From positions 1 to 45,718 of the forward strand of contig CALUUT010000083.1 of assembly GCA_944324045.1 (NCBI GenBank): DNA of 45,718 bases, in the 5' to 3' direction. Below, piece by piece: positions 1,154 through 41,983 of this stretch. Position 1 is the stretch's first letter. Each line of letters opens with the position of its first letter. This DNA comes from an uncultured Desulfovibrionaceae bacterium. Its GTDB lineage: Bacteria > Desulfobacterota > Desulfovibrionia > Desulfovibrionales > Desulfovibrionaceae. Made by a program: the position numbers and the translations under genes. The notes under the pieces were generated by a model. The model was not told where the DNA came from and searched no databases. It saw only the letters and a list, made by a program, of their open reading frames with translations.

Positions 1154-3161
<2,008 letters not shown>

Positions 3162-3337
3162 GCCGGAAAGCTTTTGCTTACCGGCATGCGCCGGACGGGC
3201 CGCTGAAGAGATGGTGTTCGCCATGTTCGACTCCAGGCGGCTCTTTCGCTGTTGCGGCAAATGTGGTATGCTGCGCGTCCTGTCGGAAAAGACAAAGCGA
3301 CGACCGAACATATCATAAACACCGCCTGGAGGTTTGC

Positions 3338-5350: not shown

Positions 5351-5389
5351 TATTTCGCTCGCATAACCCCTATACGACGAGGATATACT

Positions 5390-5974
5390 ATGACTATGCG
5401 CTTTTTGCTTTATGCCGCAACGTTGATTTGCATAGGCTGCATGAGCGTCTCCACCGCCTTGGGCGCGCCGCAGTCGGAAGACGATATCATGGGCGCAGGC
5501 GGCATCCGCAAGGATGTCCCTACAACCATCCGTTCAAACAACATGCGTTATGACGCAAACAAACTGCAGATTGTTTTTGACGGAAAAGTCCAGGTTCGGC
5601 GGCCTGATTTTGATCTTGATGCAAAACGATTGACTGTGTATTTAAAACCCGCTCCAGAAAAGCCCAAAAGCGCGAATGAAAATTCGCACGATATTGGAAG
5701 CGGAATGAACGCGGGCGATATTGACCGCATGGTCGCCACAGGAAGCGTTCATATCGTCAAGGAAGGACGAACAGGCGATGCGGAAAAAGTGACGTTTTTC
5801 ATGGATGATGGACTGCTCGTCATGGAAGGCAACCCCATTTTGCGTGAAAATAAAAATACGATCAGAGGCACTGTCGTCAAATTTTATACAAAAGAAAATC
5901 GCAGTGAAGTCATAGGAAGCAACAATACTCCGGTAGAAGTTTTATTTTCCGTGCCGCCGGGCCGCAATAAATAA
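5390..5974 (+). CDS. lptA: Lipopolysaccharide transport periplasmic protein LptA
   Basis: LptA oligomerises into the beta-jellyroll bridge that carries LPS across the periplasm to LptD. The 194-residue product has a signal peptide (hydrophobic residues about 4-22, probable cleavage after TALGA). Its OstA-type domain holds TTIRSNNMRYD, IVFDGKVQVRRPDFDLDAKRL and a GSVHIVKEGRTGDAEKVTF segment. The start at 5390 is preceded by GAGG; an alternative ATG lies two codons in. It lies 39 bases after lptC and 12 before lptB, within one transcription unit. Confidence 0.92.
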   Translation: MTMRFLLYAATLICIGCMSVSTALGAPQSEDDIMGAGGIRKDVPTTIRSNNMRYDANKLQIVFDGKVQVRRPDFDLDAKRLTVYLKPAPEKPKSANENSHDIGSGMNAGDIDRMVATGSVHIVKEGRTGDAEKVTFFMDDGLLVMEGNPILRENKNTIRGTVVKFYTKENRSEVIGSNNTPVEVLFSVPPGRNK

Positions 5975-5986
5975 AAAGGGAACAGT

Positions 5987-6712
5987 ATGTCTTCAATTCT
6001 TGAGGCGGAAGGTCTGAAAAAAAAATACGGCGAACGCGAGGTTGTGCGTGGCATCTCTTTGAAGATGCATCAAGGGGAAATTGTTGGGCTTTTGGGACCA
6101 AACGGAGCCGGTAAGACGACAACGTTTTATATGGTTATCGGGATTATTCGTCCTTCTGCGGGAAATGTGTTCCTTGATGGGAAAAATATTGTGGACTGGC
6201 CGCTTTATGAACGCGCAACTGTTGGTTTGTCTTATTTGCCGCAAGAAAGTTCTGTTTTCCGCAAGTTGACGGTATATGAAAACTTGCAGTTAATCCTGCA
6301 ATACACAAACTTGAGTCCTAAAGAGGAAAAAGCGCGAGCGGAATCATTAATGGAGGAATTCGGCATAACGCATCTTGCCAAAACACGCGCCATGCATCTG
6401 TCGGGCGGAGAACGCCGGCGGCTTGAAATAGCGCGTTCGCTTATCCGCGAGCCAAAGTTTCTGCTCCTTGATGAACCTTTTGCTGGCATAGACCCTTTGG
6501 CGGTTGATGATATCCAGTGTTTGATCAAGGGATTGTGCGCCAAAGGCATCGGCATCCTCATTTCAGACCATAACGTCCGCGAGACCCTTAACATATGCGA
6601 CCGCGCCTATCTTGTGTATGAAGGACAGATAATTTTGAACGGCACGCCGCAAGAAATCGTCAATGACCCCAAGGCACGCCGCGTATATCTGGGGCAGGAT
6701 TTCTCTTTGTAG
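5987..6712 (+). CDS. lptB: LPS export ABC transporter ATP-binding protein LptB
   Basis: LptB is the cytoplasmic ATPase dimer that powers LPS extraction by LptF and LptG, which are encoded at 19275-21568. The 241-residue protein has Walker A GPNGAGKTT (residues 37-45), the Q-loop YLPQESSVFRKLTV with the typical LptB groove sequence, the signature LSGGERRRLEIARSL, Walker B FLLLDEPFAGIDP and the H-loop ISDHNVRETL. Length and motifs are standard. AGGGAACAG just upstream supplies the ribosome-binding site. The short stem TGCTGC/GCAGCA (6717-6734) right after the stop is too weak to be called a terminator. Confidence 0.97.
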   Translation: MSSILEAEGLKKKYGEREVVRGISLKMHQGEIVGLLGPNGAGKTTTFYMVIGIIRPSAGNVFLDGKNIVDWPLYERATVGLSYLPQESSVFRKLTVYENLQLILQYTNLSPKEEKARAESLMEEFGITHLAKTRAMHLSGGERRRLEIARSLIREPKFLLLDEPFAGIDPLAVDDIQCLIKGLCAKGIGILISDHNVRETLNICDRAYLVYEGQIILNGTPQEIVNDPKARRVYLGQDFSL

Positions 6713-7320: not shown

Positions 7321-8757
7321 ATGGGCCTTGAACTCAGACAGCAACTGAAACTTGCGCAACAGCTTGTTATGACGCCGCAATTGCAGCAAGCCATAAAACT
7401 GCTGCAATTATCCCGTATTGAACTCATTGAAAATATCAACCAGGAGCTTTTGGAAAATCCTTTTCTCGATGATGTCGCGGACGAGGGAGATTCCCACCAG
7501 GATACCCAGCCATCCGAAAAACGTTCCGATGCCGATGATCAGGATACCATCTACGGCAAGGAAATCAGCGATAATGCGGATTGGGAGGACTATCTGGGCG
7601 ATTTTTCGAGTACGTCTCGCCAATCGACCCTTCGCGAGGCCGAATTGCCGGAAGAGGGGAGCTCTTTTGAGACCTATTATGCGGCCAGAACGACATTGGA
7701 AGGGCATCTGGAATGGCAGCTTAGACTTTCTTCGCTAACGGAACGCCAAAAAGAGATTGGCGAATTGATCATAGGAAACCTGGATGCGGCTGGTTATTTG
7801 CAGGCTACAGTCGAAGAAATAGCCGGCATGGCCAAGGCTGAAGTCAAAGAAGTGGAAGCCGTCCTCGCCGCGGTTCAGCGTTTTGATCCGGTTGGCGTTG
7901 CGGCAAGAACCCCGCAGGAATGCCTGTTGACCCAGATTGATGTACTGGGATATACGCGCGATCCGATTCTTGTGGGCATTGTGCGCGATCATCTGGAGGA
8001 TTTGGAAGAAAGGCGATATAAACCGCTTTTAAAAAAATTCAAGCTCACCCTGGATGACCTTAAGGATTATCTGAATATCATTCAGTCGCTTGATCCCATG
8101 CCTGGCCGGAATTACGGCGGAGACGAGCCTCTTTTTGTAAGTCCGGACGTCTATGTCTATAAAGCGGATGGCGAGTATATCATTATCCTCAATGACGAAG
8201 GGCTTCCCCATTTGTCTTTGAACGCCATGTACGAAGCCAGCATCGGCACTGCCAAAGACAAGGAAAGGGAATATCTTCAAGAAAAGCTTAAGGCCGCGTC
8301 ATGGCTGATAAAAAGCCTGCACCAGCGGCAACGTACCCTTTACAAGGTCACTGAAAGCATAGTCAAACATCAAAAAGAATTTTTTGATGAGGGCGTTTCA
8401 AAACTGAAGCCCCTTATTTTGAAAGATATTGCGGAAGATATAGAAATGCATGAATCTACGGTAAGCAGAATTACCGCAAACAAATTCATTGCGACTCCGC
8501 ATGGGACTTTTGAATTGAAATTTTTCTTTAACAGCGCTCTTGAGCTGGACGACGGCTCGCATGTAGGTTCCGAGAGCGTTCGCTTGCTGATAAAAAAACT
8601 TATTGCCGAGGAAGATCCCAAAGAACCTCTCAGCGATGAAAAACTGGGAGAGATTCTCAAAGAAAAACTGAAAGTGAATATTGCGCGGAGAACTGTTGCA
8701 AAATATCGAACAGCGATGGGCATTGAATCTTCGTCGAAACGGAAACAACTTTTTTGA
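7321..8757 (+). CDS. rpoN: RNA polymerase factor sigma-54
   Basis: Sigma-54 directs RNA polymerase to -24/-12 promoters that need AAA+ activators; in Desulfovibrio this regulon covers nitrogen, motility and carbon genes. The 478-residue protein has the Gln/Leu-rich region I (LRQQLKLAQQLVMTPQLQQA), an acidic region II (about residues 45-100), the core-binding domain, the helix-turn-helix HESTVSRITANKFIATPHG and the RpoN box ARRTVAKYR at about 455-463. All domains look intact. The ribosome-binding site before the ATG is weak. The gene sits between lptB and hpf, the conserved proteobacterial order. Confidence 0.97.
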   Translation: MGLELRQQLKLAQQLVMTPQLQQAIKLLQLSRIELIENINQELLENPFLDDVADEGDSHQDTQPSEKRSDADDQDTIYGKEISDNADWEDYLGDFSSTSRQSTLREAELPEEGSSFETYYAARTTLEGHLEWQLRLSSLTERQKEIGELIIGNLDAAGYLQATVEEIAGMAKAEVKEVEAVLAAVQRFDPVGVAARTPQECLLTQIDVLGYTRDPILVGIVRDHLEDLEERRYKPLLKKFKLTLDDLKDYLNIIQSLDPMPGRNYGGDEPLFVSPDVYVYKADGEYIIILNDEGLPHLSLNAMYEASIGTAKDKEREYLQEKLKAASWLIKSLHQRQRTLYKVTESIVKHQKEFFDEGVSKLKPLILKDIAEDIEMHESTVSRITANKFIATPHGTFELKFFFNSALELDDGSHVGSESVRLLIKKLIAEEDPKEPLSDEKLGEILKEKLKVNIARRTVAKYRTAMGIESSSKRKQLF

Positions 8758-13818: not shown

Positions 13819-13881
13819 GAATGAGGCATTTTATTTTATATACTACTGATCATTTGAAATACGATTTATATGGGAAAGACG

Positions 13882-14904
13882 ATGAAAGAAATCTGGAATG
13901 CTGCAAGAGAAAGATTGAAGGGGTTTTGCAGAGTATGTTCTGTATGCGATGGGCGGGCATGCGCCGGCGAAGTCCCTGGAATGGGCGGCCTGGGAAGCGG
14001 CGCATCCTTTAAAAACAACCTTGCTGCTCTTGCTTCATTTCGGCTGCGCATGAGGGTGATTCATGAAATAACCGAGCCGGATATCTCGACTGATGTGCTG
14101 GGGCTCAAGCTTTCCATGCCGGTCATGGCCGCGCCGATTGGCGGAACCTCATACAATATGGGTGAAAACAGCATATCGGAAAGGCGCTATATAGCATCTG
14201 TCATTCAAGGGTGTCTGGCGGCCGGAACACGGGCGTGCACAGGCGACGGGCCTTTGGACGAGATATTCACCGAGGCGCTTTTTGCCATAAAAGAGGCTTC
14301 AGGGGCAGCCATTCCGTTTATCAAACCATGGGAAGGACGTGAAGCTTTTGATAAAATCCAGGCAGCGCTTGACGCAGGCTGTACAATCATTGGAATGGAT
14401 ATTGACGCCATTGGTCTGGTGACATTGAGAAAAATGGGGCGGCCTGTTTCTCCCAAGAACATCGAGCAATTGGCGGCGATTGCTGAGTATGTTCATTCGC
14501 ATCACGCTCGACTGATAGCAAAAGGAATCATGACCAGAGAAGATGCCGCGCTGGCTTGTGATGCGGGCGTTGACGGCATTGTTGTTTCCAATCATGGCGG
14601 CCGCGTTCTTGATCATACGCCGGGAACCGCTGAAGTGCTTTCAGAAATCGCTGAAGCGGTAAAGGGAAAAGTGGCGGTACTTGTGGATGGCGGCGTACGT
14701 TCAGGGGTTGATGTGCTTAAGATGAGGGCCTTGGGTGCTGATGCCGTGCTTATTGGACGCCCCTGTTCTCTTGCTGTCGTGGGAGATCCGGAAAATGGCC
14801 TTGAAAAATATCTTAATGCGATACGGCAGCAGCTTATGGCGGCCATGATATTAACCGGCATGCCGGATTTGCAAAGCGTAGGAAAGCATATTTTGCAGCC
14901 TTGA
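13882..14904 (+). CDS. FMN-dependent alpha-hydroxy-acid dehydrogenase/oxidase family protein with N-terminal Cys cluster
   Basis: This family oxidises 2-hydroxy acids such as L-lactate or glycolate to 2-oxo acids with FMN. The 340-residue TIM-barrel protein has the substrate/FMN region MPVMAAPIGGTS, the catalytic VSNHGGRVLDHTPGT with active-site His and Arg, VLVDGGVRSGVDVLKM and the phosphate-binding LGADAVLIGRPC. The N-terminus carries Cys16, Cys19, Cys22 and Cys27 in GFCRVCSVCDGRACAGE, unlike classical lactate oxidases. The ATG at 13882 has GGGA about six bases upstream; an in-frame ATG at 13870 has none. The gene appears to stand alone behind its own promoter. The substrate cannot be told from sequence; lactate is an attractive guess in a sulfate reducer. 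Confidence 0.83.
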   Translation: MKEIWNAARERLKGFCRVCSVCDGRACAGEVPGMGGLGSGASFKNNLAALASFRLRMRVIHEITEPDISTDVLGLKLSMPVMAAPIGGTSYNMGENSISERRYIASVIQGCLAAGTRACTGDGPLDEIFTEALFAIKEASGAAIPFIKPWEGREAFDKIQAALDAGCTIIGMDIDAIGLVTLRKMGRPVSPKNIEQLAAIAEYVHSHHARLIAKGIMTREDAALACDAGVDGIVVSNHGGRVLDHTPGTAEVLSEIAEAVKGKVAVLVDGGVRSGVDVLKMRALGADAVLIGRPCSLAVVGDPENGLEKYLNAIRQQLMAAMILTGMPDLQSVGKHILQP

Positions 14905-14944: not shown

Positions 14945-15688
14945 TTGTCTTTATATATCAGACAGATATTCTCCCATGAGCATAAAGAAGCGTTGCAATC
15001 CTGCGGAATAACGCTTCTTGCTGAACAGGCGGTATGGAATATCCATCGTATCTGCGCATGGTTGTGTCTGATTATTTTCACTGTATGCACGTTTCCCGCG
15101 CATGCGGCCCCAAATGATGCAGTTAAAAGCAATTCTCCAAAAATAAAATTGTTTGGAACTGTGGAATTTCGTGGGCCGCTAAAAACTCTTCCTGCATGGC
15201 TGAGCGTTCTGGAACGCAACAGCAAAAATTCTATTTTCATTCCCGGCAGTAGATTGAATTCAAAAATGACGTGGGATGAATTCAAGGCAAAAGCGGAAAA
15301 ATTATCTCCCCTGGATCAACTTAAGATGGTCAACTCATTTTGGAACCAGTGGCCATATCGCGAAGACAGGGATGTTTACGGAAAATCTGACTATTGGGCC
15401 ATTCCAGCTCAATTTCGAAAAAATTCAGGCGACTGTGAAGACTATAGCATTGTAAAATATTTCACTCTACGGGCTTTAGGTTTTACACCGGAACAAATGC
15501 GCATTGTCGTCCTTATGGAAACCATTCGTAACATGGCTCATGCCGTTTTAGTCGTGTACCTTGATGGCGATGCGTACGTTCTTGACAATTTAAGCAAAAA
15601 TGTGCTCTCTCATACGAGATATAAAAACTATCTTCCCCAGTTTTCAGTTAATGAGAAAAATAGATGGGTTCATGTGAAACCAAAATAA
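14945..15688 (+). CDS. LapG-like periplasmic transglutaminase-type cysteine protease
   Basis: LapG-family proteases (bacterial transglutaminase-like cysteine proteinases, DUF920) clip the N-terminus of large surface adhesins in the periplasm and release biofilm cells. The 247-residue product has a Sec-type signal after a 35-residue lead (hydrophobic about 36-51, cleavage near PAHA-APN). The probable triad is Cys164 in NSGDCEDYS, His199 in MAHAVLVVYL and Asp214 in VLDNLS. FWNQWPYREDRDVYG is the expected segment before the Cys. The start is a TTG at 14945 with AGGA upstream; a later start would shorten the lead to the signal. It is followed after 71 bases by a membrane receptor gene. No giant adhesin or type I secretion genes lie in the window. 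Confidence 0.82.
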   Translation: MSLYIRQIFSHEHKEALQSCGITLLAEQAVWNIHRICAWLCLIIFTVCTFPAHAAPNDAVKSNSPKIKLFGTVEFRGPLKTLPAWLSVLERNSKNSIFIPGSRLNSKMTWDEFKAKAEKLSPLDQLKMVNSFWNQWPYREDRDVYGKSDYWAIPAQFRKNSGDCEDYSIVKYFTLRALGFTPEQMRIVVLMETIRNMAHAVLVVYLDGDAYVLDNLSKNVLSHTRYKNYLPQFSVNEKNRWVHVKPK

Positions 15689-15759
15689 TAGCTATTTTAT
15701 ATTATTGAATACAACACACATCCTTTGAATTTTTCTGATACTGTATTTGGAGATGCAAT

Positions 15760-17835
15760 ATGGATATCTCTTCCAAAGAATCGTGGTATACTGCAATTCA
15801 TAAAAAATATATAGTAATTATATCAATATGCATTATACTCTGCATTTTAGCTGTTGCATATGTCATATGCAAACAGAAATACGAAATAGAAAAAAAGGAC
15901 ATTCTGACGCAGCAAAAAGAAGCGCTCGAATTGTGGACAGTTGGAACGGTAAAAGCCATTTCTTTATGGACCGACGAACTTGACGCCTTGGCAAAGCGCG
16001 TAAGCACATCTGAACTATTTCGAATTTTTGCCACGGACGCTTACAATCTGGATGAGAAAAATAAAGCCATAGTCAATGATCCTGACGTTGCAGCCTTGTC
16101 TCCATCCGAAGATGCTTCGATGCTGGCGGAGCAGGTTCCTCTCATGCGCAATATTTTGCTGGATTTCATGAATTATAATGGCATGCTTGATGCCCGTATA
16201 GTCAACGCGCATGGACAGACGCTTCTCTCTTCGCTTTCACGCCCAACCCCTGTCACAAAAGAACAGCGTGCGGCCATTGCCGCGGCCTTATCCTCAAACT
16301 CCATTGCGTTTACGCCTGTAAGAGAATCTCCGGCCGGCCTGGTTCTTGATTTTGTGCAGCCTTTGCGGCCCGTGTTGTCCCACAGCGAGGAAAGCAGACC
16401 CGTTGCAGCCATCCTGCTGACCACGCCTGTCACCGGGCAGATCGCCCAGTTTCTTGCTCGCGATATGCGACAAATCGGTTCAGCCAAAGCCCGGTTGTTG
16501 CAAAAGCATGACGCAGACTGGGAGGAAATTCAGGTACAGTCAGCAAGTCCTATACTGTTAAGCAAAGAAATGGCCCTTCCCGTGATGCATGGGGCCATGC
16601 CTTTTGCTCTCCGGCCGGCTCTGCAAAATGAATCGAAAGTGTATTCTCTTGGCACGCCGGTTCCCGGTCTGGAGTGGCTGCTTGTGATTGAGGTTCCAGC
16701 CCAGCATATCAATGCCCGTCTTGATTCAGAAGCGCGAATGATTTTCGGCATAGGCGCTCTGGTCAGCATAGGTTTTATACTCCTATTGGCTCTTTTGTGG
16801 TGGGTCGGCATAGGACGGCAACAACGAAACATAGCTCAGCGTTTCAAAAATTTATATCAGGTCATCAATAATCAAAAGCGATTGCTTGACGGCATCAATG
16901 TTTCGTTGGAAGTCGGTTTGATTATGGCTGATGAAAAAGGAGAAATTCAGGTCAGCAATAGATTTTTCGCACAAATGGTCCACCAAGAAAACGCCGATCT
17001 CAAGGGAGCCACTTTTGCTTCCCTGTTTGATGGCCGCGTCTCCGGCATTCTTCTTGATGGAATCCGAAAAGTCGTCGGCTCGGGCGAAACGACATCATTT
17101 GAAATAGAAATACAGGACACGCTGTTTCGCGTCACGTTATTTCCTTTTATTGATACAGACGAAGCGGAGAATACAAAGGGAGCGGTCGCCATTTTTCAGG
17201 ATATAACAGAATTTCGTCGAAACAGCGAAAGGCGTCGCAGGCAGCAGATCAATACAATAGCCGCCCTGGTTCGCGCCATTGAAGGCGTTGATCCATATCT
17301 TGCCGGTCATTCCCATATGATGGAGACGTTGTCAGGTCTTGTTGCGCGTCAACTGCAGCTTGACGAACATGATAAAAATACTTTGAAAATAGCGGCGAGC
17401 CTTTCCCAGATAGGAAAAATATTTGTGCCGCGTGAATTGTTGGCGAAAACAGGCGAGTTGTCGCAGGAAGAACAGCAGGAGCTTATGCGCGTGCCGGAAT
17501 ATGCATATACTATTCTGCGTGATATTGATTTTGATCTTCCTGTTCCTCAGGCTGTCTATGAAATGTATGAGCGAATGGACGGAACAGGATATCCGCAACG
17601 CCTGAAAGGAAAAGATATCAGTCTTCCTGCCAGAATTTTAGCTGTCGTTAATGCATTTTGCGCCATGGTAAGCCCGCGGTCCTATAGAAACAGCATGCCT
17701 GTTGACAAGGCGATTAGGGCGTTGCATTCCAATCCAGGCAGTTTTGACCCCGAAATCGTACAGAGCCTTGAAGCTGTTTTGCGCACGCCGGAAGGGGCTC
17801 AGGCTGTCGTGCGCAATCCCTTGGACACAGTATAG
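15760..17835 (+). CDS. Membrane receptor with periplasmic sensor, PAS and degenerate HD-GYP domain
   Basis: The 691-residue protein has TM1 at about 17-38, a periplasmic sensor region (about 40-327), TM2 (328-352), a short coiled segment, a PAS-like domain (about 375-490) and an HD-GYP-like domain (about 500-680). HD-GYP enzymes hydrolyse c-di-GMP using a His/Asp metal site. Here the HD pair is Ser549-Gln550 (LSQIGK), the RHP His is Val578, the HH pair before the GYP loop is Met602-Tyr603, and two Asp positions read Asn and Cys (VVNAFCAM). The DGTGYP loop (607-612) is kept. Hydrolysis is therefore unlikely, while ligand or partner binding may persist. GGAG upstream supports the start. Location next to a LapG-like gene suggests a LapD-like role. 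Confidence 0.82.
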   Translation: MDISSKESWYTAIHKKYIVIISICIILCILAVAYVICKQKYEIEKKDILTQQKEALELWTVGTVKAISLWTDELDALAKRVSTSELFRIFATDAYNLDEKNKAIVNDPDVAALSPSEDASMLAEQVPLMRNILLDFMNYNGMLDARIVNAHGQTLLSSLSRPTPVTKEQRAAIAAALSSNSIAFTPVRESPAGLVLDFVQPLRPVLSHSEESRPVAAILLTTPVTGQIAQFLARDMRQIGSAKARLLQKHDADWEEIQVQSASPILLSKEMALPVMHGAMPFALRPALQNESKVYSLGTPVPGLEWLLVIEVPAQHINARLDSEARMIFGIGALVSIGFILLLALLWWVGIGRQQRNIAQRFKNLYQVINNQKRLLDGINVSLEVGLIMADEKGEIQVSNRFFAQMVHQENADLKGATFASLFDGRVSGILLDGIRKVVGSGETTSFEIEIQDTLFRVTLFPFIDTDEAENTKGAVAIFQDITEFRRNSERRRRQQINTIAALVRAIEGVDPYLAGHSHMMETLSGLVARQLQLDEHDKNTLKIAASLSQIGKIFVPRELLAKTGELSQEEQQELMRVPEYAYTILRDIDFDLPVPQAVYEMYERMDGTGYPQRLKGKDISLPARILAVVNAFCAMVSPRSYRNSMPVDKAIRALHSNPGSFDPEIVQSLEAVLRTPEGAQAVVRNPLDTV

Positions 17836-17979: not shown

Positions 17980-18056
17980 TGGTAGCGAGGGAGGGAATTG
18001 AACCCCCGACACTGCGGATATGAGCCGCATGCTCTAACCGTCTGAGCTACCTCGCC
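17980..18056 (-). tRNA. tRNA-Met(CAT), probably elongator type
   Basis: The minus-strand 77-base sequence folds as a complete cloverleaf. It has acceptor GGCGAGG pairing with CCTCGCT (one G-T pair), TA then GCTC of the D arm, anticodon stem TGCGG/CCGCA with loop CTCATAT, T loop TTCAATT and an encoded CCA end. The anticodon is CAT (18020-18022). Position 1 pairs, so it is not an initiator. Elongator Met and the lysidine-modified Ile2 tRNA share this anticodon; Met is more likely but not proven. Confidence 0.93.
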
Positions 18057-18123: not shown

Positions 18124-18918
18124 TCATGAAAGAAGAAAATAAACGACCGGCGCGAGAAGTATGCGGTAAATGGCAAAGGGGGTAAAGTTTATCTTACTGA
18201 TAAGATTGACAAAAATTTTTATAGCTAAAGAGGCGGCCAAGAAAGAAACAATAAAGCCAACCAGAAAAACAGGGATATTCTTTGCTGTAATAAAGGCCAT
18301 ATTTTTAAGCAGATCAAATCCCGTTGCCGCAAACATAATCGGCACAGCCGCAATAAAAGAATATTCAGCCGCCAGAGGCCTCTTTGCCCCGGAAAGCAGA
18401 CCGCCCATAATCGTGGAAGCTGAACGGGAAAAACCGGGCCACAGCGAGAAACATTGAGCAAGTCCCACGCAGAGAGCAAAGCCTGGCGTGATATCGTTGA
18501 TGCTTTTAACCTTATGTCGAACGGGCAACCGTTCAACAACAATCATGGCTACGCCGCCCACAATCAACGCCAGCGCCACTGTTTTGGGGCTGAAGAGATA
18601 CGTTTTTATGTAGGAATGAACAAAAAGTCCGAGAATACCCGCAGGCAAGGATGTCAGCACAAGCAGGCGAAGGCCCTTTAATCCCGAAAAGCCTGTGCGT
18701 GTTTTGGGAAAAAACAGCTCTAAAAAGCGAAGTCGGTAAAGCCAGATGACTGCAAAAATGGAACCAAGCTGGATAAAAACCTCAAAAGTCTTTGTCGTAT
18801 TATCCGTAAGCCCCAATAGATGGCTCACTATAATGAGGTGCCCGGAAGAGGATATCGGCAAAAACTCCGTTAGTCCCTGAACGATTCCAAGGATAGCGGC
18901 AGAAAAATAATCAAGCAT
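18124..18918 (-). CDS. uppP: Undecaprenyl-diphosphatase UppP (BacA)
   Basis: UppP dephosphorylates undecaprenyl pyrophosphate to recycle the lipid carrier for peptidoglycan and O-antigen; high expression gives bacitracin resistance. The 264-residue, multi-helix membrane protein has both family signatures: an N-terminal GLTEFLPISSSGHLI with the conserved Glu and Ser residues, and GFSRSASTIMGGLLSG in the second half. About eight hydrophobic helices can be counted. AAGGAGG lies a few bases upstream of the ATG at 18918. It shares a 126-base divergent promoter region with the small gene at 19045. Confidence 0.96.
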   Translation of the reverse strand: MLDYFSAAILGIVQGLTEFLPISSSGHLIIVSHLLGLTDNTTKTFEVFIQLGSIFAVIWLYRLRFLELFFPKTRTGFSGLKGLRLLVLTSLPAGILGLFVHSYIKTYLFSPKTVALALIVGGVAMIVVERLPVRHKVKSINDITPGFALCVGLAQCFSLWPGFSRSASTIMGGLLSGAKRPLAAEYSFIAAVPIMFAATGFDLLKNMAFITAKNIPVFLVGFIVSFLAASLAIKIFVNLISKINFTPFAIYRILLAPVVYFLLS

Positions 18919-19044
18919 GACAACCTCCTTATCATGTAGGAGAACTTCAGATATGCTATCCTACTTAATACCGCAAGGAAAGAAGTTGCAATTGCAAGTG
19001 CCGGATAGTTAAGGTAAAGAACAACCGATTCGGAGGAAACAGGT

Positions 19045-19260
19045 ATGACTGGCATTCTGTCGGATAGCGAAAAATTCAAAAAAGCTTTGGAAGCTGTTTT
19101 TGAAAACTCGCGATTGCTTACGGAGCGTGGACCGGAATTTGATGCATTTCTTGACGATGTTTTTATGAAATTTGATCTTTCTCCCAAAGAATCGGAGAAA
19201 ATTCTGCATATCCTGGAAACTGTGAGAACCAAAGGCTCTGTACAGGATATATTGAGCTAA
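19045..19260 (+). CDS. Small acidic helical protein of unknown function
   Basis: A 71-residue product behind a clear CGGAGGAAACAGG ribosome-binding site. The sequence is soluble, largely alpha-helical by composition, and has an acidic middle (ERGPEFDAFLDDVFMKFD) and a C-terminal KESEKILHILETVR helix. No cysteine, signal or membrane segment is present. It ends 14 bases before lptF and is very likely co-transcribed with lptFG. I do not recognise the family. Its size and placement suggest a regulator or adaptor, but nothing in the sequence shows it. Confidence 0.7.
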   Translation: MTGILSDSEKFKKALEAVFENSRLLTERGPEFDAFLDDVFMKFDLSPKESEKILHILETVRTKGSVQDILS

Positions 19261-19274
19261 CCTGTTTCAGCATT

Positions 19275-20477
19275 ATGGGGGCAACTCTGCCAAAGCTTCT
19301 TCGCATCACGTTACTGCAGCGGTATCTGTTCAAAGAACTTATTTCCGTTTTTGCGTTATCCTTGGTCGCTTTGCTGTTTTTAGTGCTTATGGGCCGGGGT
19401 CTGCAACTGCGTGAATTATTTGTGGGCCTTGACCTCGGCATTGGTGAAATGCTGTATCTTTTTGGCTGTCTTACGCCTTTTTTCCTTATGCTCGTCTTGC
19501 CCATCGCTTGTCTGCTTTCAGTGTTTCTCACGTTTTTGCGCATGAATACCGACAGGGAGCTTGTCGCTTTGAAAACAGGCGGCATTGGCATTAATAAGAT
19601 GCTGAGCGCGCCGATAATCTTTTGCCTAATCTGCTTTGCGCTGACCCTCCTTATTTCATTGCATGGCATCAACTTTGGAATGTCCCGTTTTCGCGAGACA
19701 ATCATGACGATTGCAAATACCCGAGCCCGTCTTGTCATTCAACCGGGAGTGTTTAATCAGGATATTCCCGGACTGACCATTTTTGCCAAAAATGTCGACC
19801 TGGTCAGCGGCAAATTGTCGCAGGTTGTTGTGGATGACCGCACACACGACAACATCAGCATGAGCATTGTCGCGCCGACCGGTTATATCATGACGGACCA
19901 GCAGCGCGGAGAGCTGATTTTTGAACTGGAGAATGGTCAGCTGTATCGCGTTTCCGGAAACCAGGTCAACACGGCAGGGTTTAATGAATACCTTGTTCGG
20001 ATAAGTCTTAATGAGATTTTTAAAGGCGTCGATCTGGGAGAAGTTCGACCGCGAGAAATGTCGTGGACGCAACTTCTACGCAATATGAGAAACTTTGCCC
20101 AAAAAGACGCTACGCCTGAAAACATCCTCGAATATAACAGATTTGTAGTGGAAATGCATAAGCGTTGGGTGTTTCCCGCAGCCTGCATTGTGTTGGGCTT
20201 TCTTGCCATCCCCATGGCCTGTTCCATTGAGGGATTGCATAGACAGTTTGCCGCTGCCTTTGCTCTTATCTTGTTTTTCATTTATTACAGCATGCAATCT
20301 ATGGCCATGAGCATCGGAGAAAGCGATGTCCTGCCGCCCGCCATCATCATGTGGCTTCCAAATGCAATTTTTATGGCCCTTGCTTTGTGGGGATACCGTC
20401 TCGCATCGCGTGAACGTTTCCACTTTGTTTCAAGAGCGCCACGTTGGTGGACTCGATTGCGGAGGCGCCAAAAATAA
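19275..20477 (+). CDS. lptF: LPS export ABC transporter permease LptF
   Basis: LptF and LptG are the permease pair that extracts LPS from the inner membrane with LptB and LptC. The 400-residue protein has three N-terminal TM helices (about 20-125, including the coupling-helix region MNTDRELVALKTGGI), a beta-jellyroll periplasmic domain (about 130-290) and three C-terminal helices (about 295-380). The start at 19275 lacks a clear ribosome-binding site, so it may be translated by coupling with the small gene 14 bases upstream. Its TAA overlaps the lptG ATG by one base. F and G are told apart by order and by similarity at the N-terminus (RYLFKELISVF), so a swap is possible. Confidence 0.92.
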   Translation: MGATLPKLLRITLLQRYLFKELISVFALSLVALLFLVLMGRGLQLRELFVGLDLGIGEMLYLFGCLTPFFLMLVLPIACLLSVFLTFLRMNTDRELVALKTGGIGINKMLSAPIIFCLICFALTLLISLHGINFGMSRFRETIMTIANTRARLVIQPGVFNQDIPGLTIFAKNVDLVSGKLSQVVVDDRTHDNISMSIVAPTGYIMTDQQRGELIFELENGQLYRVSGNQVNTAGFNEYLVRISLNEIFKGVDLGEVRPREMSWTQLLRNMRNFAQKDATPENILEYNRFVVEMHKRWVFPAACIVLGFLAIPMACSIEGLHRQFAAAFALILFFIYYSMQSMAMSIGESDVLPPAIIMWLPNAIFMALALWGYRLASRERFHFVSRAPRWWTRLRRRQK

Positions 20478-21568
20478 TGCTTCGTGTAACCAAATTGACC
20501 GGATATTTGACGCAGCAAAACCTGTATCTGCTTGGCGTTATTCTTATTATGGGCTTGGGGGTCTACCTTCTTACTGACCTTTTTGAGCGGTTGGATAATT
20601 TTTTGGAGTCGGAGGCCTCTTTAAAAATAATTCTTTTATATTTTGTAGTTAAAATTCCCTTAATTATTTCTCAAATATTGCCCGCGACATTTTTATTGTC
20701 CACCCTGGTCCAATTGTGTTTTATGGCCAGAAGCCGTGAGCTTATAGCATTACAGACCGGCGGAATATCTCTACTGAAGATTCTGAAGTTTTTATTGATT
20801 TATGGAATAATATGGGCGGGGGCGCAATTGTTTTTCTCGCAATGGTTGGGCGTATGGGGCGAACAATATGCCAATGAAATCTGGCGCAGAGATATTTCAG
20901 GAAAAAGCGCTTCAAAGCATATGCTTTCAAATGTCTGGTTTCTTGATGAAAACTGGGTTGTACATTTGGAAAGCGTCTCCACTGAATCCGGCGAAGGGCA
21001 AAATTTCACGGGGTATAAGCTTTCTGAGGATGGTTTGGAAATTGATCAGGTGGTTCGAGCGTCATCATTCCATGCCCGTTCCCAGGTATGGCGTCTCAAT
21101 GATGTTATGATATCCGTGCCGAACGATTTTTCACAAATGCGGCAGGAGACTCTTGTTTTGCCTTTGTCGCAATCGCCCAAAAATTTTCAGGTGTTTACCA
21201 GCAGCAACGCTCCATCCAAGCTTTCGCTTTGGCAATTGGGAGAAACAATAGAGCAACTTGAGGCTTCCGGTTCCAATGTTGAAGGGTTGAGAACGGCCTG
21301 GCATTCAAAAGTCGCCTATGCCGCGTCCATCATTATTATGGGAGTCGTGGCCCTGGCTATTGTGACTTGGAAGGATACGCTCTATATCAGCGTCGGCGCC
21401 GGACTGGTTTTTGTTTTTTTATTCTATGTGCTTTTCACATTGGGGGGCACATTGGGAGAAAAAGGGGTTTTCTCTCCTGCCGTCGCTGTATGGATTTTTC
21501 CGGCCAGTATTTTTTGTCTGGCTTTAATTCGAATATTCTGGGTATTGCGGCCCCGTTTTTTTCATTAA
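20477..21568 (+). CDS. lptG: LPS export ABC transporter permease LptG
   Basis: This is the partner permease of LptF, with 363 residues and the same plan: three TM helices (about 12-120; SRELIALQTGGIS marks the coupling helix), a periplasmic jellyroll domain, then three helices from about 275. The ATG at 20477 overlaps the lptF stop; the frame extends upstream to a TTG inside lptF, but the family N-terminus LTGYLTQQNL fits the ATG. GGAGG lies 12 bases upstream. It converges with ysxC on the minus strand, with only 38 bases between. Confidence 0.92.
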   Translation: MLRVTKLTGYLTQQNLYLLGVILIMGLGVYLLTDLFERLDNFLESEASLKIILLYFVVKIPLIISQILPATFLLSTLVQLCFMARSRELIALQTGGISLLKILKFLLIYGIIWAGAQLFFSQWLGVWGEQYANEIWRRDISGKSASKHMLSNVWFLDENWVVHLESVSTESGEGQNFTGYKLSEDGLEIDQVVRASSFHARSQVWRLNDVMISVPNDFSQMRQETLVLPLSQSPKNFQVFTSSNAPSKLSLWQLGETIEQLEASGSNVEGLRTAWHSKVAYAASIIIMGVVALAIVTWKDTLYISVGAGLVFVFLFYVLFTLGGTLGEKGVFSPAVAVWIFPASIFCLALIRIFWVLRPRFFH

Positions 21569-21606
21569 CTATTTAATCTGATGAAACAGGCTCAGGAACT
21601 ATTTGT

Positions 21607-22191
21607 TCACGCGCAAAAATCACGGTTTAACGCTTCACGGAGTTCCTTAATCCCCAATCCGCTCTTTGCGGATACTATCAGCGGCATATGCCCGCCCACA
21701 ATACTGCGCCACTCCTGAGTACGCTTTGCCAGTTCCTGCTGTTTGCATTTATCGGCTTTGGTCAACACCGGCAAAAGCGGCATCCTGTTTTTATGCGCAA
21801 AGGCAATCAGCTCCAGATCAAGCTTTTGGGGAGGGAGCCGCCCATCAAGCAGGGCAATGAAGCAGCGAACATTGGATGCGCGCGTAATGTAGGCGTGAAT
21901 GAGTTTAGACCACTTCTCGCGTTCTGTTTTGCTGCATTGCGCATAGCCATATCCGGGAAGATCAATAAGGTAAAAGTTTCCTGGCATTACAGCATACATA
22001 TTGAGACTGCGGGTTTTTCCAGGAGTCGCGCTGACCTTTGCCAGATTTTTCCGCGAGCCCAGTGCGTTGATCAACGATGATTTGCCCACATTGGAGCGCC
22101 CGGCAAAGACGACATGCGGCAATGAAACATCAAGAGAACGGAGTTGTTCCAGGGTATAAATTGTGTCTTTGAGGGTCAGGTTCATATCCAT
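21607..22191 (-). CDS. ysxC: Ribosome biogenesis GTP-binding protein YsxC/YihA (EngB)
   Basis: YsxC is a small essential GTPase needed for 50S subunit assembly. The 194-residue protein has the P-loop GRSNVGKSS (G1), switch Thr in SATPGKTRSLN (G2), DLPGYGYAQ (G3), TKADK (G4) and SAKSGLG (G5), all in the expected order. KTEREKWSKLIHAYI matches the family-specific region after G3. The ATG at 22191 is used; a second ATG two codons in is an alternative. It is transcribed divergently from aroQ. Confidence 0.95.
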   Translation of the reverse strand: MDMNLTLKDTIYTLEQLRSLDVSLPHVVFAGRSNVGKSSLINALGSRKNLAKVSATPGKTRSLNMYAVMPGNFYLIDLPGYGYAQCSKTEREKWSKLIHAYITRASNVRCFIALLDGRLPPQKLDLELIAFAHKNRMPLLPVLTKADKCKQQELAKRTQEWRSIVGGHMPLIVSAKSGLGIKELREALNRDFCA

Positions 22192-22314
22192 AAAAAATCC
22201 TTATGAGGGGGCTCGTTGGCAACTGACGGTCAAAAGCATGATCAGGACTTGACAATCTGTCGCGAACCATTGAAAAGGTTGTGGCCGTAATTTTATTCAG
22301 TACAGGAGCAACGG

Positions 22315-22791
22315 ATGCCTTTTTCTTTTCTTGTCGTCAATGGCCCCAACTTAGGATGCCTCGGTAAAAGGCAGCCTGAAATATACGGGACCAAAAGTCT
22401 TCAGGACATACCGGCATTGCTTGATAAATTTTTCGGGCCAAATGTACAAGACATGATTCGCCTGGAGTTTTATCAATCAAATCACGAAGGCGCAATTATT
22501 GACAGAATTGAGCAAGCGCGAGAGGAAGGGGTAGATGGACTTATTATCAATGCCGGGGCTTTGACTCATACCAGTTTGGCCTTGGCCGACTGTCTTGCCT
22601 GGGTGCAGATTCCCTTTATCGAAGTTCATATCAGCAATGTCATGGCTCGTGAGGAGCAAATACGGCATACAACCCTCCTGGGAAGATATGCGCGGGGAAT
22701 TATTGCCGGTTTTGGAATCTTGGGATATGCTTTGGCAATAAAAGGACTGTATGAATATTTGAACGATAGCAAAAATCCGCTTCATGCCTGA
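22315..22791 (+). CDS. aroQ: 3-dehydroquinate dehydratase, type II
   Basis: AroQ dehydrates 3-dehydroquinate to 3-dehydroshikimate, step three of the shikimate pathway, as a dodecamer. The 158-residue protein carries VNGPNLGCLGKRQPEIYG with the catalytic Tyr and flexible-loop Arg, the FYQSNHEGAIID segment, INAGALTHTSLALADCL and the catalytic His in EVHISNVMAREE. The ATG follows AGGAGCAACGG. It lies 153 bases before efp in the same direction, a pairing seen in many bacteria. Confidence 0.96.
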   Translation: MPFSFLVVNGPNLGCLGKRQPEIYGTKSLQDIPALLDKFFGPNVQDMIRLEFYQSNHEGAIIDRIEQAREEGVDGLIINAGALTHTSLALADCLAWVQIPFIEVHISNVMAREEQIRHTTLLGRYARGIIAGFGILGYALAIKGLYEYLNDSKNPLHA

Positions 22792-22944
22792 ATACTTAAA
22801 TGCCGTGTAAACGCTACATGGAGCTGGTGATCTATTTCAGAAAAAAATGCCTTTTAAAGAAAAACTCCTGGTTTCAGTCAATATATTACAGTGGTGCGGC
22901 CTTGCGTCTGCATAAAACTATTTGCGTCTTTATTGGGAGGACAA

Positions 22945-23502
22945 ATGTATTCGACCACAGATTTTCGGAAGGGCCTTAAGATTGAACTTGATGGCACCCC
23001 TTATGAAATTGTTGACTTTCAGCATTTCAAGCCAGGCAAAGGCGGCGCAATGGTACGGACAAAATTGCGCAATATTTTGACGGGACGTCTTCAAGACAAT
23101 ACTTTCCGTTCGGGAGAAAAGGTTGAGCGTCCGGATCTTGAAGTGCGCGAGATGCAGTTTCTTTACCATGACGGCGAAGCCCTTGCTTTTATGGATTTGA
23201 CTTCATATGAACAAATTGCCATGGATGAATCCGTCACGGGCGGAAAGTCAAACTTTCTTAAAGATGGACAAACCGTACAGGTTCTTTTGTACAAAGGGCA
23301 ACCTTTGGATGTGGAATTGCCGCTTTCTCTTGTGCTTAAAGTCGTAGAAACCGAGCCCGGCGCCAAGGGCGATACGGTAAGCAATGTCACCAAACCCGCC
23401 AAACTTGAAACAGGGGCCGTTGTTCAGGTTCCTATTTTCATCAATGAAGGCGACATGATTAAAGTCGATACACGCAGCAGTGAATACCTGGGACGCGAGT
23501 AG
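22945..23502 (+). CDS. efp: Elongation factor P
   Basis: EF-P rescues ribosomes stalled at polyproline. The 185-residue, three-domain beta-barrel protein starts [17 protein letters not shown]; the modifiable tip residue is Lys in [12 protein letters not shown], and the C-terminal domain ends with [20 protein letters not shown] Lys tip points to beta-lysylation by EpmA/EpmB or to an unmodified tip; the partner genes are not here. GGGAGG precedes the ATG at 22945, which overrides an 18-codon upstream extension. Confidence 0.96.
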
Positions 23503-23679
23503 TCATTTTGCGTTTCGTACGCGGCCTGGAGTTTCTCCTGTCCTCCCGCGTCGCTTTCGGAAAGTGTTTCACCCGACGGCATGATTGCGGCACATCATCT
23601 GTTTTGTCGGAAGCATGAATTCGTGGGGCGGGAAAGTTTTCCAGCGATTACGGTTTGTTGTGTGATATAAGTGGCCACA

Positions 23680-23712
23680 AAGAGGATATGGACATATTGG
23701 ACATATCCTCTT
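23680..23712 (+). terminator. 11-bp inverted repeat overlapping the annotated ftsK ATG
   Basis: AAGAGGATATG (23680-23690) and CATATCCTCTT (23702-23712) form a perfect 11-bp stem with an 11-base loop, followed by the T-rich ATTCTATTTTTC. It can be read as the efp terminator, or as a structure that hides the ATG at 23688 and its GAGG. See the finding on the ftsK start. Confidence 0.5.
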
Positions 23713-26162
23713 ATTCTATTTTTCAGAATAAAGGAGCACATATTACGGAAGGCAATAAAATTGCCCGCGATTTGCTGGGGTTTCTTTATATTTTTTTGGG
23801 GGTCATTTTGTTGCTCAGTTTGGCGACATTTGACGCTGCTGACCCTCATATCAATCACACGTTCTCCCCTCCTGTTGAAATAAAAAACGGAGCAGGGGTC
23901 TTTGGCGCATATGCCTCTGGATTTATTGTCGATTTTTTTGGCATTGCATCCTACATGATTGCTGTCGCGGTTCTTATCGCCGGCTTGCGCCGCATCATGG
24001 TCCGCTTGATTTTTCCTTGGTGGCGGACCTCAGGGATAATTCTGCTTGGCCTTTGCATCTCTACAGCAGCCTCAGGGGGCGGAATAAGCCTTGGCGATAT
24101 TTACGGCGGCGGCTTGATCGGGGATATTTTATATGCGTTTTTCCGGCGTTTTCTTGGCGTCCGCGGCGCCGCCATTTTCTGGCTTTTTCTTTTCATGGTT
24201 GCTGTGCAGCTGTTTCTTGGCATTTCCTGGGTTTCCACATGCCATCTTGCATGGGAAAAATTTACAAAAACGGCTCGCATGCTTTTGCTCAAAATCCGCG
24301 ATAAAATCCATACCGTAAAATTGGGTATGCCTGTTAAGACATTATCCGCAGTAAAGCACGGCCCAGAAAATGAACAATCAGGTTCATATGATGCGGATGA
24401 TTCACCAGTGAAAGATTTAATCCGCTTTCCCGGTGTATTCTCTTCAGATCACGCGGAAGCGAATACGTCGAACGCATCGCTTGAAGCTGGCGGAAAAAAT
24501 AATGTATCCAAACAGTTAAAGAATAACTTTAATTTTTTATCAGAAATGGAATTCTGTCCGGAGGAAAGTTCGCCTCAAGCTGATCAGCCCGCACAGGATA
24601 TCGCCATTCAGTCCACGCCAAATGACTCCCAAATGCTTGACGGCGCTATAGCTGTCGAGCCTGTAATGGAGCCTGGGCAGCAAGCGACGCAACCCATTGC
24701 GCGAAAGCGGAATATTGTTTTGCCGCCCATTTCAATTCTGTCCACTCCAAAACCGGATGAAAACAGGATATCGCACGAAGTACTTGCGGCAAATGGTAAA
24801 AATCTTGTGAATAGTCTGGCTGATTTTGGAGTGCAGGCAGATCTTGTGGGAATTATTCCCGGACCGGTGGTCACCATGTATGAGCTGCGTCCGGCGCCGG
24901 GCATCAAAGTCAGCCGTATCGCGGGGTTAAGCGATGATCTCGCGCTGTCTTTGAAAGCTGTGGCCGTCCGCATCCAGGCGCCCATTCCCGGGACCGACAC
25001 GGTCGGAGTCGAAGTGCCCAATGAGCATCGGGAAACTGTGTCCTTTAAAGATTTGCTGGCCTCGGATGCTTTCATGTCCTCGCCGTCATTATTGAGTATG
25101 GCTCTTGGCAAGGATATTTCAGGCGCTCCCAGCATCGCAGATCTTGCCCGCATGCCGCATCTTCTCGTGGCCGGCGCGACAGGCGCCGGAAAAAGCGTTT
25201 GCATCAACGCCATTCTTCTTTCTTTGCTTTTCAAAGCCAAGCCCAGTGAACTCCAGCTTCTGCTTGTTGACCCTAAACGCATCGAGCTTGCCGTATATGC
25301 GGATCTGCCGCATCTTGTGCATCCGGTTGTGACGGAAATGTCCATGGCCAAAAATGCGTTGGAATGGGCCGTGCAGGAAATGGATCGCCGGTATATGGCC
25401 ATAGCGCAGGTCGGAGTCCGCAATATTTCGGGATATAATGAGAAACTGGCAAATCTCAAAAAAGAAAATCCGGAATCCGTACAAGACCTTGAGCCCATGC
25501 CATATCTTGTCATCATTATTGATGAACTTGCGGACCTTATGATGACCGCCGGCAAGGATATTGAAACAAGCATTGTGCGCCTTGCCCAGCTTGCCCGCGC
25601 CGCTGGCATTCATCTGATTCTTGCGACCCAGCGCCCAAGCGTTAATATTGTGACCGGGTTGATCAAGGCCAATTTTCCCTGCCGCATCTCGTTTCAGGTT
25701 ACGTCTTCCCACGACTCGCGAACCATTCTTGATGCAGTCGGGGCGGAGCATCTGCTCGGCAAAGGTGATATGCTGTTTAAGCCTGGCGGAGGAAAATTGC
25801 AGCGTTTGCATGGAGCGTTCGTCAGTGACGATGATGTCGCCGCTGTGGTTGGCTTCTGGAAAAAACAGCTTCCGCCTTCATATAAAGTTGATTTTGCATC
25901 CTGGAACAACAACGATCAGGCCGGGTCAGAACAGGGAGGCGGCGGAGACGATTTGGGAAACGATCCGATGTATTCGGAAGCTGTGGCATTCGTCATGCAA
26001 CAGGGTAAAGCTTCCATATCGCTTATTCAGCGTCGCTTCCGCATCGGCTTTAACAGAGCGGCTCGATTTGTCGAACAGATGGAAAAAGACGGGGTCATCG
26101 GTCCGCAGGATGGAAGCAAACCACGAATCGTCATTCGCGGCCGGGATGCTCAGAATTTCTAG
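23688..26162 (+). CDS. ftsK: DNA translocase FtsK
   Basis: FtsK anchors at the septum and pumps DNA toward dif, where it activates XerCD (xerD is at 32860). Visible parts: four or five TM helices in the first 200 residues, a Pro/Gln/Ser linker, the alpha/beta RecA-like motor with Walker A GATGAGKSV and Walker B LVIIIDELADLMM, ATQRPSVNIVTG, and a C-terminal gamma winged helix (QRRFRIGFNRAARF) that reads KOPS. The size is typical of the short-linker FtsK/SpoIIIE type. The start is uncertain. The ATG at 23688 has GAGG only two bases away and lies in a hairpin. An in-frame ATT at 23742 has AAAGGAG at ideal spacing and would give 806 residues. Confidence 0.95.
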   Translation: MDILDISSYSIFQNKGAHITEGNKIARDLLGFLYIFLGVILLLSLATFDAADPHINHTFSPPVEIKNGAGVFGAYASGFIVDFFGIASYMIAVAVLIAGLRRIMVRLIFPWWRTSGIILLGLCISTAASGGGISLGDIYGGGLIGDILYAFFRRFLGVRGAAIFWLFLFMVAVQLFLGISWVSTCHLAWEKFTKTARMLLLKIRDKIHTVKLGMPVKTLSAVKHGPENEQSGSYDADDSPVKDLIRFPGVFSSDHAEANTSNASLEAGGKNNVSKQLKNNFNFLSEMEFCPEESSPQADQPAQDIAIQSTPNDSQMLDGAIAVEPVMEPGQQATQPIARKRNIVLPPISILSTPKPDENRISHEVLAANGKNLVNSLADFGVQADLVGIIPGPVVTMYELRPAPGIKVSRIAGLSDDLALSLKAVAVRIQAPIPGTDTVGVEVPNEHRETVSFKDLLASDAFMSSPSLLSMALGKDISGAPSIADLARMPHLLVAGATGAGKSVCINAILLSLLFKAKPSELQLLLVDPKRIELAVYADLPHLVHPVVTEMSMAKNALEWAVQEMDRRYMAIAQVGVRNISGYNEKLANLKKENPESVQDLEPMPYLVIIIDELADLMMTAGKDIETSIVRLAQLARAAGIHLILATQRPSVNIVTGLIKANFPCRISFQVTSSHDSRTILDAVGAEHLLGKGDMLFKPGGGKLQRLHGAFVSDDDVAAVVGFWKKQLPPSYKVDFASWNNNDQAGSEQGGGGDDLGNDPMYSEAVAFVMQQGKASISLIQRRFRIGFNRAARFVEQMEKDGVIGPQDGSKPRIVIRGRDAQNF

Positions 26163-26255
26163 CATAAGCAGTTATTGCGTTTTTTCACAGCAACGATATC
26201 TGCGATATGCATGTTTGCTAACATAAAAAGTTCTCGCTTGGATGGAGACCATAAC

Positions 26256-26924
26256 ATGTTTCGGTGTATTTGCTTGACTCTCGTATTGGTTTTCAGTGCT
26301 GTTTCATGTTGGGCGGATGTTTTGGCCAACTTCGATATTGCGGCAAAAATGCAGGAAAAATATGCATCTGTCACGTCATTTTCCGCTGAAATTACACAAA
26401 TTTTGACGCATGCCGAAAGTCAGACCACGGAACGCCGGACAGGAAAACTCGCTTTCAAAAAGCCCGGTTTCATCAATATTGAAACATCCATACACGATAA
26501 TTCGAAAGAGTTCGACGTTTCACGAATCATCGTAACCGATGATCTGGTATGGATGTATGCGCCTGAGGAAAAAACAGCCTATAAATATTCACGGGACATG
26601 CTTCAGGATGTATCACCGGGCCTTCTTGTTTTGACGGGACAGGCGAACCTTCTGAAAAGTTTTGCAATTGACGGTCAGGCGGAGGAGGGCGCCTTAACAA
26701 GATTGACGCTGTATCCTAATGAGCCGACGACGCAAATGGTCAAGGTGGTCATCTGGCTTGAAACGCAAACAGGGGTTTTGCAGCGGGTTCAAATTACAGA
26801 TTTCTACGAGAATATGAATGATATAACATTGACTAAGCTCCAGTTCGATGGGCGAATTGATGATTCGCTTTTTCACTTTGTTCCGCCCAGGGGAGTCCTT
26901 GTCGAAGATCACACAAAAAACTAG
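26256..26924 (+). CDS. lolA: Outer-membrane lipoprotein carrier protein LolA
   Basis: LolA carries lipoproteins from LolCDE across the periplasm. The 222-residue product has a signal peptide (hydrophobic about 4-17, probable cleavage near SCWA) and the single-domain half-barrel. Typical segments are KYASVTSFSAEITQ, RRTGKLAFKKPGFI, VTDDLVWMYAPEEKTAYKY and LQRVQITDFYEN. It follows ftsK by 93 bases, an order shared with many gamma- and deltaproteobacteria. The ATG at 26256 has GGAG nine bases upstream; an in-frame TTG further upstream would spoil the signal peptide. Confidence 0.9.
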   Translation: MFRCICLTLVLVFSAVSCWADVLANFDIAAKMQEKYASVTSFSAEITQILTHAESQTTERRTGKLAFKKPGFINIETSIHDNSKEFDVSRIIVTDDLVWMYAPEEKTAYKYSRDMLQDVSPGLLVLTGQANLLKSFAIDGQAEEGALTRLTLYPNEPTTQMVKVVIWLETQTGVLQRVQITDFYENMNDITLTKLQFDGRIDDSLFHFVPPRGVLVEDHTKN

Positions 26925-26963
26925 AAGAGTGCGCCGGATGTTTGATTTTTATTCAAAAAACTG

Positions 26964-26990
26964 AACAGAGAGTCAACTCTGTTGTTTTTT
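26964..26990 (+). terminator. Intrinsic terminator after lolA
   Basis: AACAGAG (26964-26970) pairs with CTCTGTT (26977-26983) over a 6-base loop and runs into GTTTTTT. It ends the ftsK-lolA transcript. Confidence 0.75.
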
Positions 26991-27000
26991 AAGCAATGAG

Positions 27001-27157
27001 GCAGCAAAACGTTTCAGGGCTTGCGCTTGGGAGGGGCGCGCATCCCCTCCCGAACTTTCCGTCCATCTGATACCCCACACAAAAGGCTCGGGGTGGGGCT
27101 AGGCCTTCCGGCCGGGTCTTAAACCACAAAGATAGATGAATATGGGGGCGGGAAAAC
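27001..27157. other. GC-rich structured intergenic segment between lolA and rluB
   Basis: Three inverted repeats lie close together: GGGAGGGG/CCCCTCCC (27029-27036 with 27044-27051), CCCCAC/GTGGGG (27073-27078 with 27093-27098) and GGCC/GGCC (27102-27105 with 27110-27113). The segment is clearly richer in G and C than other spacers here. No protein frame with a ribosome-binding site is seen. It lies downstream of both converging genes. Confidence 0.5.
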
Positions 27158-27922: not shown

Positions 27923-28101
27923 TATGTATAATCCCTGAAAAAGGCAGGCCGCCTATGTTTTGTAGCAGTTCGCAGAAAAATAAACAAAAAAACAAACAAT
28001 CAAGGCCGGACGGAACGCCGCTTTAAAAACTAGCGCCTTTTGCCTTTTTCTGGCATTGTCATGCCGCATTTTTTCTATAACCAAAAGCTCAAGGGAGCAA
28101 C

Positions 28102-29877: not shown

Positions 29878-29881
29878 CGCC

Positions 29882-30529: not shown

Positions 30530-30544
30530 CCAAACTTTTTGCGC

Positions 30545-32723: not shown

Positions 32724-32859
32724 GACAAAATCCAGCTTGTTGCAATAACATAAAAAAGGTATATGACATGTCCTGCTTTTGTAAGCTCTGTCCGGCAATT
32801 CTGTCAATTGCCGGAAAAAGATTTGTTTTTCCCGCTTGAGGAACGTCCGGCTCAAAGGT

Positions 32860-33813: not shown

Positions 33814-33821
33814 GGATTTTC

Positions 33822-36530: not shown

Positions 36531-36605
36531 GATGATGATTTTTCATCCTTGCTCACTGTGTGGATAACATGTAGAAATGTACGAAGAACGTTTTCGAGGT
36601 GACGC

Positions 36606-37115: not shown

Positions 37116-37125
37116 GGAGCCTTTG

Positions 37126-37500: not shown

Positions 37501-37571
37501 CACAGTTAATACGTTCGAATATTTCGGAATGGTAAAACTCTATTATAACGTTTTGGCTGAGGAGTAACCCT

Positions 37572-41957: not shown

Positions 41958-41983
41958 CACAGTATATGAGGTCAAAAACGAGA

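Follow-up and report, generated by a model that had tools for sequence, protein, structure and literature searches.

A DvhG/DvhD-type protease-receptor pair in an uncultured Desulfovibrionaceae bacterium, with a giant adhesin, type I secretion genes and a second DvhD elsewhere in the genome

The locus consists of two plus-strand genes, separated by an intergenic gap of 71 bp, on a 45,718-nt stretch of DNA from an uncultured Desulfovibrionaceae bacterium (the whole analyzed stretch is herein called the window). The upstream gene encodes a protease of the LapG family and carries the following features.

14945-15688, + strand: dvhG-like gene, TTG start, 247 aa, periplasmic LapG-family cysteine protease (BTLCP, Peptidase_C93), from ORF, profiles, alignment and model
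15431-15439, + strand: D163-C164-E165, the catalytic Cys between two calcium-site residues, invariant in a 24-row alignment
15539-15541, + strand: triad residue His199, identical in all 24 aligned sequences
15584-15586, + strand: triad residue Asp214, identical in all 24 aligned sequences

The Peptidase_C93/BTLCP profile matches this ORF at 4.5e-21, the NCBIfam LapG model matches it at 9.5e-30, which is under the equivalog cut-off, and its PDB matches are the solved LapG chains 4u65 and 4fgo. The AlphaFold2 model (block pLDDT 92-99 from residue 71 onward) likewise has the LapG fold, with LapG structures as its first matches. A preceding sequence-only reading had proposed a LapG-like protease with the triad Cys164/His199/Asp214, in good agreement with the ORF and the invariant residues found here. 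The core is preceded by a hydrophobic helix at residues ~21-48, which fits a signal peptide. This short N-terminus differs from that of DvhG of Nitratidesulfovibrio (Desulfovibrio) vulgaris Hildenborough (DVU1019, also BfsG), which carries a TM helix and a linker of about 180 residues, and signal peptides are present in most DvhG orthologues (PMC13090378). Residues D316/C317/E318 are needed for the activity of DvhG (PMC13090378).

The 5′ neighbor of the protease gene is an FMN-dependent dehydrogenase gene (13870-14904), and a tRNA-Met gene lies on the minus strand 3′ of the receptor gene (17980-18056); tRNA-Met aside, no family attained its gathering score in an Rfam scan of the window. The remainder of the window (1449-6712, 7321-8757, 18124-31453 and 32836-45470) resembles chromosomal housekeeping DNA, with genes for CTP synthase, a DAHP-synthase-family enzyme, LptC, sigma-54, EF-P, FtsK and LolA, an ABC exporter near a lipid A acyltransferase, a tyrosine recombinase, a DHH/CBS/polyA-polymerase fusion, MutS, an S24 CI-like repressor (42119-42832) and phosphatidylserine decarboxylase.

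The downstream gene encodes the receptor, herein DvhD1, with the following features.

15760-17835, + strand: dvhD-like gene, ATG start, 691 aa, two-TM receptor with dCache, PAS and degenerate HD-GYP domains
15871-16698, + strand: periplasmic dCache domain, approximately residues 38-313 (phmmer and Foldseek to 9rc2)
16906-17202, + strand: PAS domain, approximately residues 383-481 (PAS_4 1.7e-5; 9rc0 match)
17290-17784, + strand: degenerate HD-GYP domain, approximately residues 511-675 (HD_5 7.5e-44; 9rbz match; residue table)
17404-17409, + strand: S549-Q550, replacing the HD metal ligands (residue comparison)
17587-17595, + strand: G610-Y611-P612, the intact GYP motif (residue comparison)

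The three best PDB matches of DvhD1 by sequence are all structures of D. vulgaris DvhD (DVU1020, also BfsD; PMC13090378), that is, 9RC0 (PAS/HD-GYP, 1.8e-61), 9RBZ (HD-GYP with c-di-GMP, 7.5e-49) and 9RC2 (periplasmic dCache, phmmer 7.6e-32). The same three again came first when the structure of DvhD1 was predicted from an alignment of 14 sequences (mean pLDDT 82), the Foldseek match to 9rc2 being 5.3e-19 with TMt 0.86. DvhD1 is therefore homologous to DvhD over its full length, including the two TMs, the periplasmic dCache domain, PAS and HD-GYP, and these domains and the model uphold the receptor architecture given in the sequence-only reading. In the profile search neither GGDEF nor EAL was detected in DvhD1, of which the cytoplasmic part is PAS plus HD-GYP, as had been read from the letters, nor was there a match to LapD_MoxY_N (PF16448). 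The receptor differs from LapD of Pseudomonas fluorescens in lacking the LapD/MoxY periplasmic domain as well as HAMP, GGDEF and EAL; the likeness to the LapG/LapD/LapA system of P. fluorescens lies in the LapG-type protease, the [T/A/P]AAG motif, an adhesin exported by a type I secretion system (T1SS) and the inside-out logic of control.

The HD-GYP fold is shared with the catalytic phosphodiesterases PmGH (4MDZ) and PA4781 (4R8Z), but DvhD1 has SQ for the HD ligands and M and Y at further metal positions (DvhD positions 612/613), so that the HD and downstream His metal ligands of active enzymes are missing. The c-di-GMP contacts Y523, P567, L577, Y621, M646, R650, Y652 and R653 (DvhD numbering) are kept, whereas four contact positions are changed, K582Q and E668N in the canonical site and K520V and R569E in the bridging site. 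DvhD itself has SQ in place of HD and does not hydrolyze c-di-GMP, and its stabilization by c-di-GMP was reduced most by mutation of R650, Y652/R653 and P567 (PMC13090378). From its residues, the HD-GYP domain of DvhD1 is predicted to bind c-di-GMP and not to hydrolyze it.

We considered whether a LapG-like peptidase gene might simply lie beside that of a c-di-GMP phosphodiesterase with no function in common. HD-GYP domains are usually phosphodiesterases, the receptor carries a domain of this family, and adjacency by itself is no proof of a shared role, but the replacement of the metal ligands by SQ and the full-length homology to DvhD both speak against chance neighborhood. So does the gene order among relatives; of 199 Desulfovibrionaceae genomes surveyed, 89 each contribute one receptor gene that is preceded, within 1.5 kb and in the same orientation, by a C93 gene, a count that is uncorrected for relatedness among genomes that are not phylogenetically independent. 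We regard this explanation as highly improbable. Within the same survey, both receptor and C93 were found in 94 genomes, the receptor only in 8, C93 only in 6 and neither in 91, and all of the 47 genomes in which a retention-domain adhesin was detected also have C93. In a scan of contigs from named species, for which an alignment query gave matches and a lone receptor sequence gave none, the arrangement was found in Mailhella, Bilophila, Desulfovibrio, Nitratidesulfovibrio, Pseudodesulfovibrio, Halodesulfovibrio and Desulfuromonadales, with SQ in essentially all the receptors. About 20 family genomes (for example G007, G016, G033 and G018) carry two to three C93 matches each, some of them distant from any DvhD, and the surplus matches are possible extra LapG-like proteases.

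The rest of the source genome (2.55 Mb in 117 contigs, rated complete) supplies the other parts of a Dvh system. The protease of the window is its single C93 protease, and no LapD_MoxY_N domain was found genome-wide, leaving no sign by this domain of the canonical LapD that might have been encoded elsewhere. No giant adhesin lies in the window, as already stated from the sequence, and a single one, located via its RTX and Big_9 repeats, is encoded at C16:29561-38812 (3083 aa; Big_9 repeats with C-terminal RTX repeats). Its residues 1 to ~110 constitute a retention domain homologous to adhesin N-termini across many family genomes, at the end of which PAAG is located at residues 92-95. This is the sole [T/A/P]AAG in 3083 residues, the number expected by shuffling within the first 130 aa being 0.034 against the one seen, and the equivalent site is [P/T]AAG in nearly all the homologous retention domains inspected. 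The sequence-only reading had suggested looking for a large RTX adhesin that carries a LapG cleavage motif, and this protein answers that description. In contrast to the P. fluorescens system, the Pseudomonas-type LapA retention model NF033682 matched nothing in the genome. A protein with an intact GGDEF motif is encoded directly upstream of the adhesin on the same strand (C16:39183-40577); a conserved linkage of diguanylate cyclase and adhesin was ruled out, with none found in 16 upstream regions of relatives.

The type I secretion system, the search for which had also been suggested, is encoded on a third contig by a run of TolC, LssB-type ATPase and HlyD genes (C51:37314-42389), of which the ATPase (C51:38837-40912) is the one type I secretion ATPase above the curated LssB cut-off. 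A second receptor, herein DvhD2, follows HlyD (C51:42415-44514), is 34% identical to the window receptor and also carries SQ; no protease and no adhesin lie beside these genes (C51:37314-44514). The Dvh parts are accordingly spread over three contigs, with the window pair on one, the adhesin on C16 and the T1SS plus DvhD2 on C51.

Taken together, the window pair very probably represents one half, protease and receptor, of an adhesin switch of the Dvh type. The locus and genome share with the Dvh system of D. vulgaris the BTLCP protease adjoining a dCache-PAS-degenerate HD-GYP receptor with SQ for HD, most of the c-di-GMP contacts, a retention-domain adhesin with [T/A/P]AAG and a T1SS; the protease is the only one of its kind, and LapD is absent by its domain. 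Against this reading stand the four altered contact positions, the non-independence of the genome counts and the split layout, which departs from the single operon of adhesin, T1SS, dvhG and dvhD in D. vulgaris in that adhesin and T1SS lie apart from the dvhG-dvhD pair and a second DvhD, which could be the main c-di-GMP sensor, lies beside the T1SS. We did not treat linkage to adhesin and T1SS as defining, because many relatives have these parts separated.

For the D. vulgaris proteins, c-di-GMP binding, cleavage and the control of DvhG by DvhD have been established (PMC13090378 and its ref. 30). By homology, these proteins would run the same switch, and DvhG would serve the C16 adhesin. At high c-di-GMP, the degenerate HD-GYP domains of DvhD, dimerized in the cytoplasm, would bind the nucleotide without hydrolyzing it, and the resulting shape change would travel along the stalk and through PAS and the TM helices until it reached the dCache domain in the periplasm, by which DvhG would be restrained. 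Upon a fall in c-di-GMP, DvhG would be freed to cut the giant adhesin at PAAG (near residue 92), just behind the N-terminal retention domain, and the cleaved protein would come off the surface.

The sequence-only reading had guessed that the pair might be DvhG/DvhD, and it was right, since the three DvhD structures are the best PDB matches by both sequence and fold and SQ is shared. Its description of a variant module holds relative to LapD; the pair is a member of the published Dvh system and no new module, so that the finding is less novel than was implied. On its own, the window pair contributes little beyond the structural paper of 2026 (PMC13090378). What is added beyond its main text is the split layout and a second receptor lineage. 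A genome other than that of D. vulgaris hereby bears out that c-di-GMP came to control adhesin release by way of a receptor unrelated to LapD, and that the Dvh parts need not be linked.

In a tree of 59 receptors, a quick tree with a midpoint root for drawing only, the window receptor falls into a DvhD1 lineage of 30 rows, separate from a canonical/DvhD2 lineage of 29 rows, each with SH-aLRT 100; it is 29-46% identical to the aligned relatives. Two receptor matches together with one C93 were found in 16 of the 199 genomes, three of which (G164, G177 and G178) were left out, their second match being distant and beside a different transporter. The other 13, with DvhD1, DvhD2 and a single C93, are the genome of the window, G088 (by a matching contig, Candidatus Mailhella excrementigallinarum) and eleven of group g40, taken as Desulfovibrio via G182 (Desulfovibrio sp. 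OH1186_COT-070). In all nine genomes read (eight of the two-receptor genomes plus G161), DvhD2 accompanies T1SS genes with no protease directly upstream, and DvhG lies elsewhere with DvhD1, a broken one in the case of G161. The DvhD1 beside DvhG in G161 (L115:9209-11014) appears to be interrupted, with its parts in two reading frames; DvhD2 beside the T1SS is intact in this genome. In G195 the DvhG/DvhD1 and DvhD2/T1SS units adjoin on one contig, pointing apart.

The two lineages and their co-occurrence with one C93 gene raise the possibility of a division of labor, in which DvhD1 would hold the protease and DvhD2 would be the better c-di-GMP sensor, both acting on the one DvhG, either side by side or joined as a heterodimer; we give this tentative credence, short of an even chance. 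The residues Y, P, L, R, Y, L, R, Y and R at positions 523, 567, 577, 582, 621, 646, 650, 652 and 653 are uniform in all nine protease-less DvhD2s. Position 582, K in DvhD, is Q, L or R in all the DvhD1s compared. In DvhD1 of g40, Y523 is gone as well, and so is Y621, the tyrosine of the GYP motif, which is kept by the secretion-linked DvhD2 of the same group; against the proposal, R650, R653 and P567, among the residues most sensitive to mutation, are retained in g40 DvhD1. The GYP tyrosine is changed there to L, Q, H, S or T (for example at L078:9838-11820 and L082:9020-11035), and most other c-di-GMP contacts remain. Periplasmic helix 117-139 is conserved at the 83rd-96th percentile in protease-linked receptors and at the 52nd in protease-less DvhD2, values that come from 9 sequences and a helix of uncertain correspondence to the one named in PMC13090378, but helix 83-96 is conserved in all receptor groups.

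In two further genomes, G145 and G010, DvhD1 is eroded and no DvhD2 was found. They weaken the idea that DvhD1 could lose its GYP tyrosine because DvhD2 permits it, as erosion there is independent of DvhD2, and because of them the drift of the site and the helix pattern suggest receptor specialization weakly.

As an alternative, DvhD2 may act not on the protease but on adhesin export through the T1SS, leaving the window pair alone as the Dvh switch. The T1SS-linked position of DvhD2 without a protease of its own in the nine genomes agrees with this, as do groups g7 and g4, in which a more distant SQ receptor closes a giant-adhesin/T1SS operon, eight g7 genomes with that receptor having no C93 found. 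In Bilophila (G072), on the other hand, a DvhD2-type receptor adjoins both T1SS and DvhG, like the canonical operon, and we know of no mechanism that couples DvhD-type receptors to export. We consider export control unlikely.

Returning to the shared-protease scheme, we propose with less than even confidence a two-receptor Dvh switch in part of the Desulfovibrionaceae, in which one protease is governed by two anciently split DvhDs of complementary specialization, the protease-linked one with a drifting c-di-GMP site and, in Desulfovibrio, without the GYP tyrosine that the T1SS-linked one keeps. The layout of two receptors and one protease touches on how host-associated Desulfovibrio hold onto surfaces. 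Our search of the main text of PMC13090378 found no mention of a duplication, paralogue or orphan, and it is uncertain whether the layout with two receptors is described here for the first time. At L116:9752-19899, L102:3-11743, L086 and L100, a distant SQ DvhD-like receptor ends a run of a giant Ig-repeat adhesin, a MotB/ExbD-looking protein, a T1SS ATPase and HlyD.
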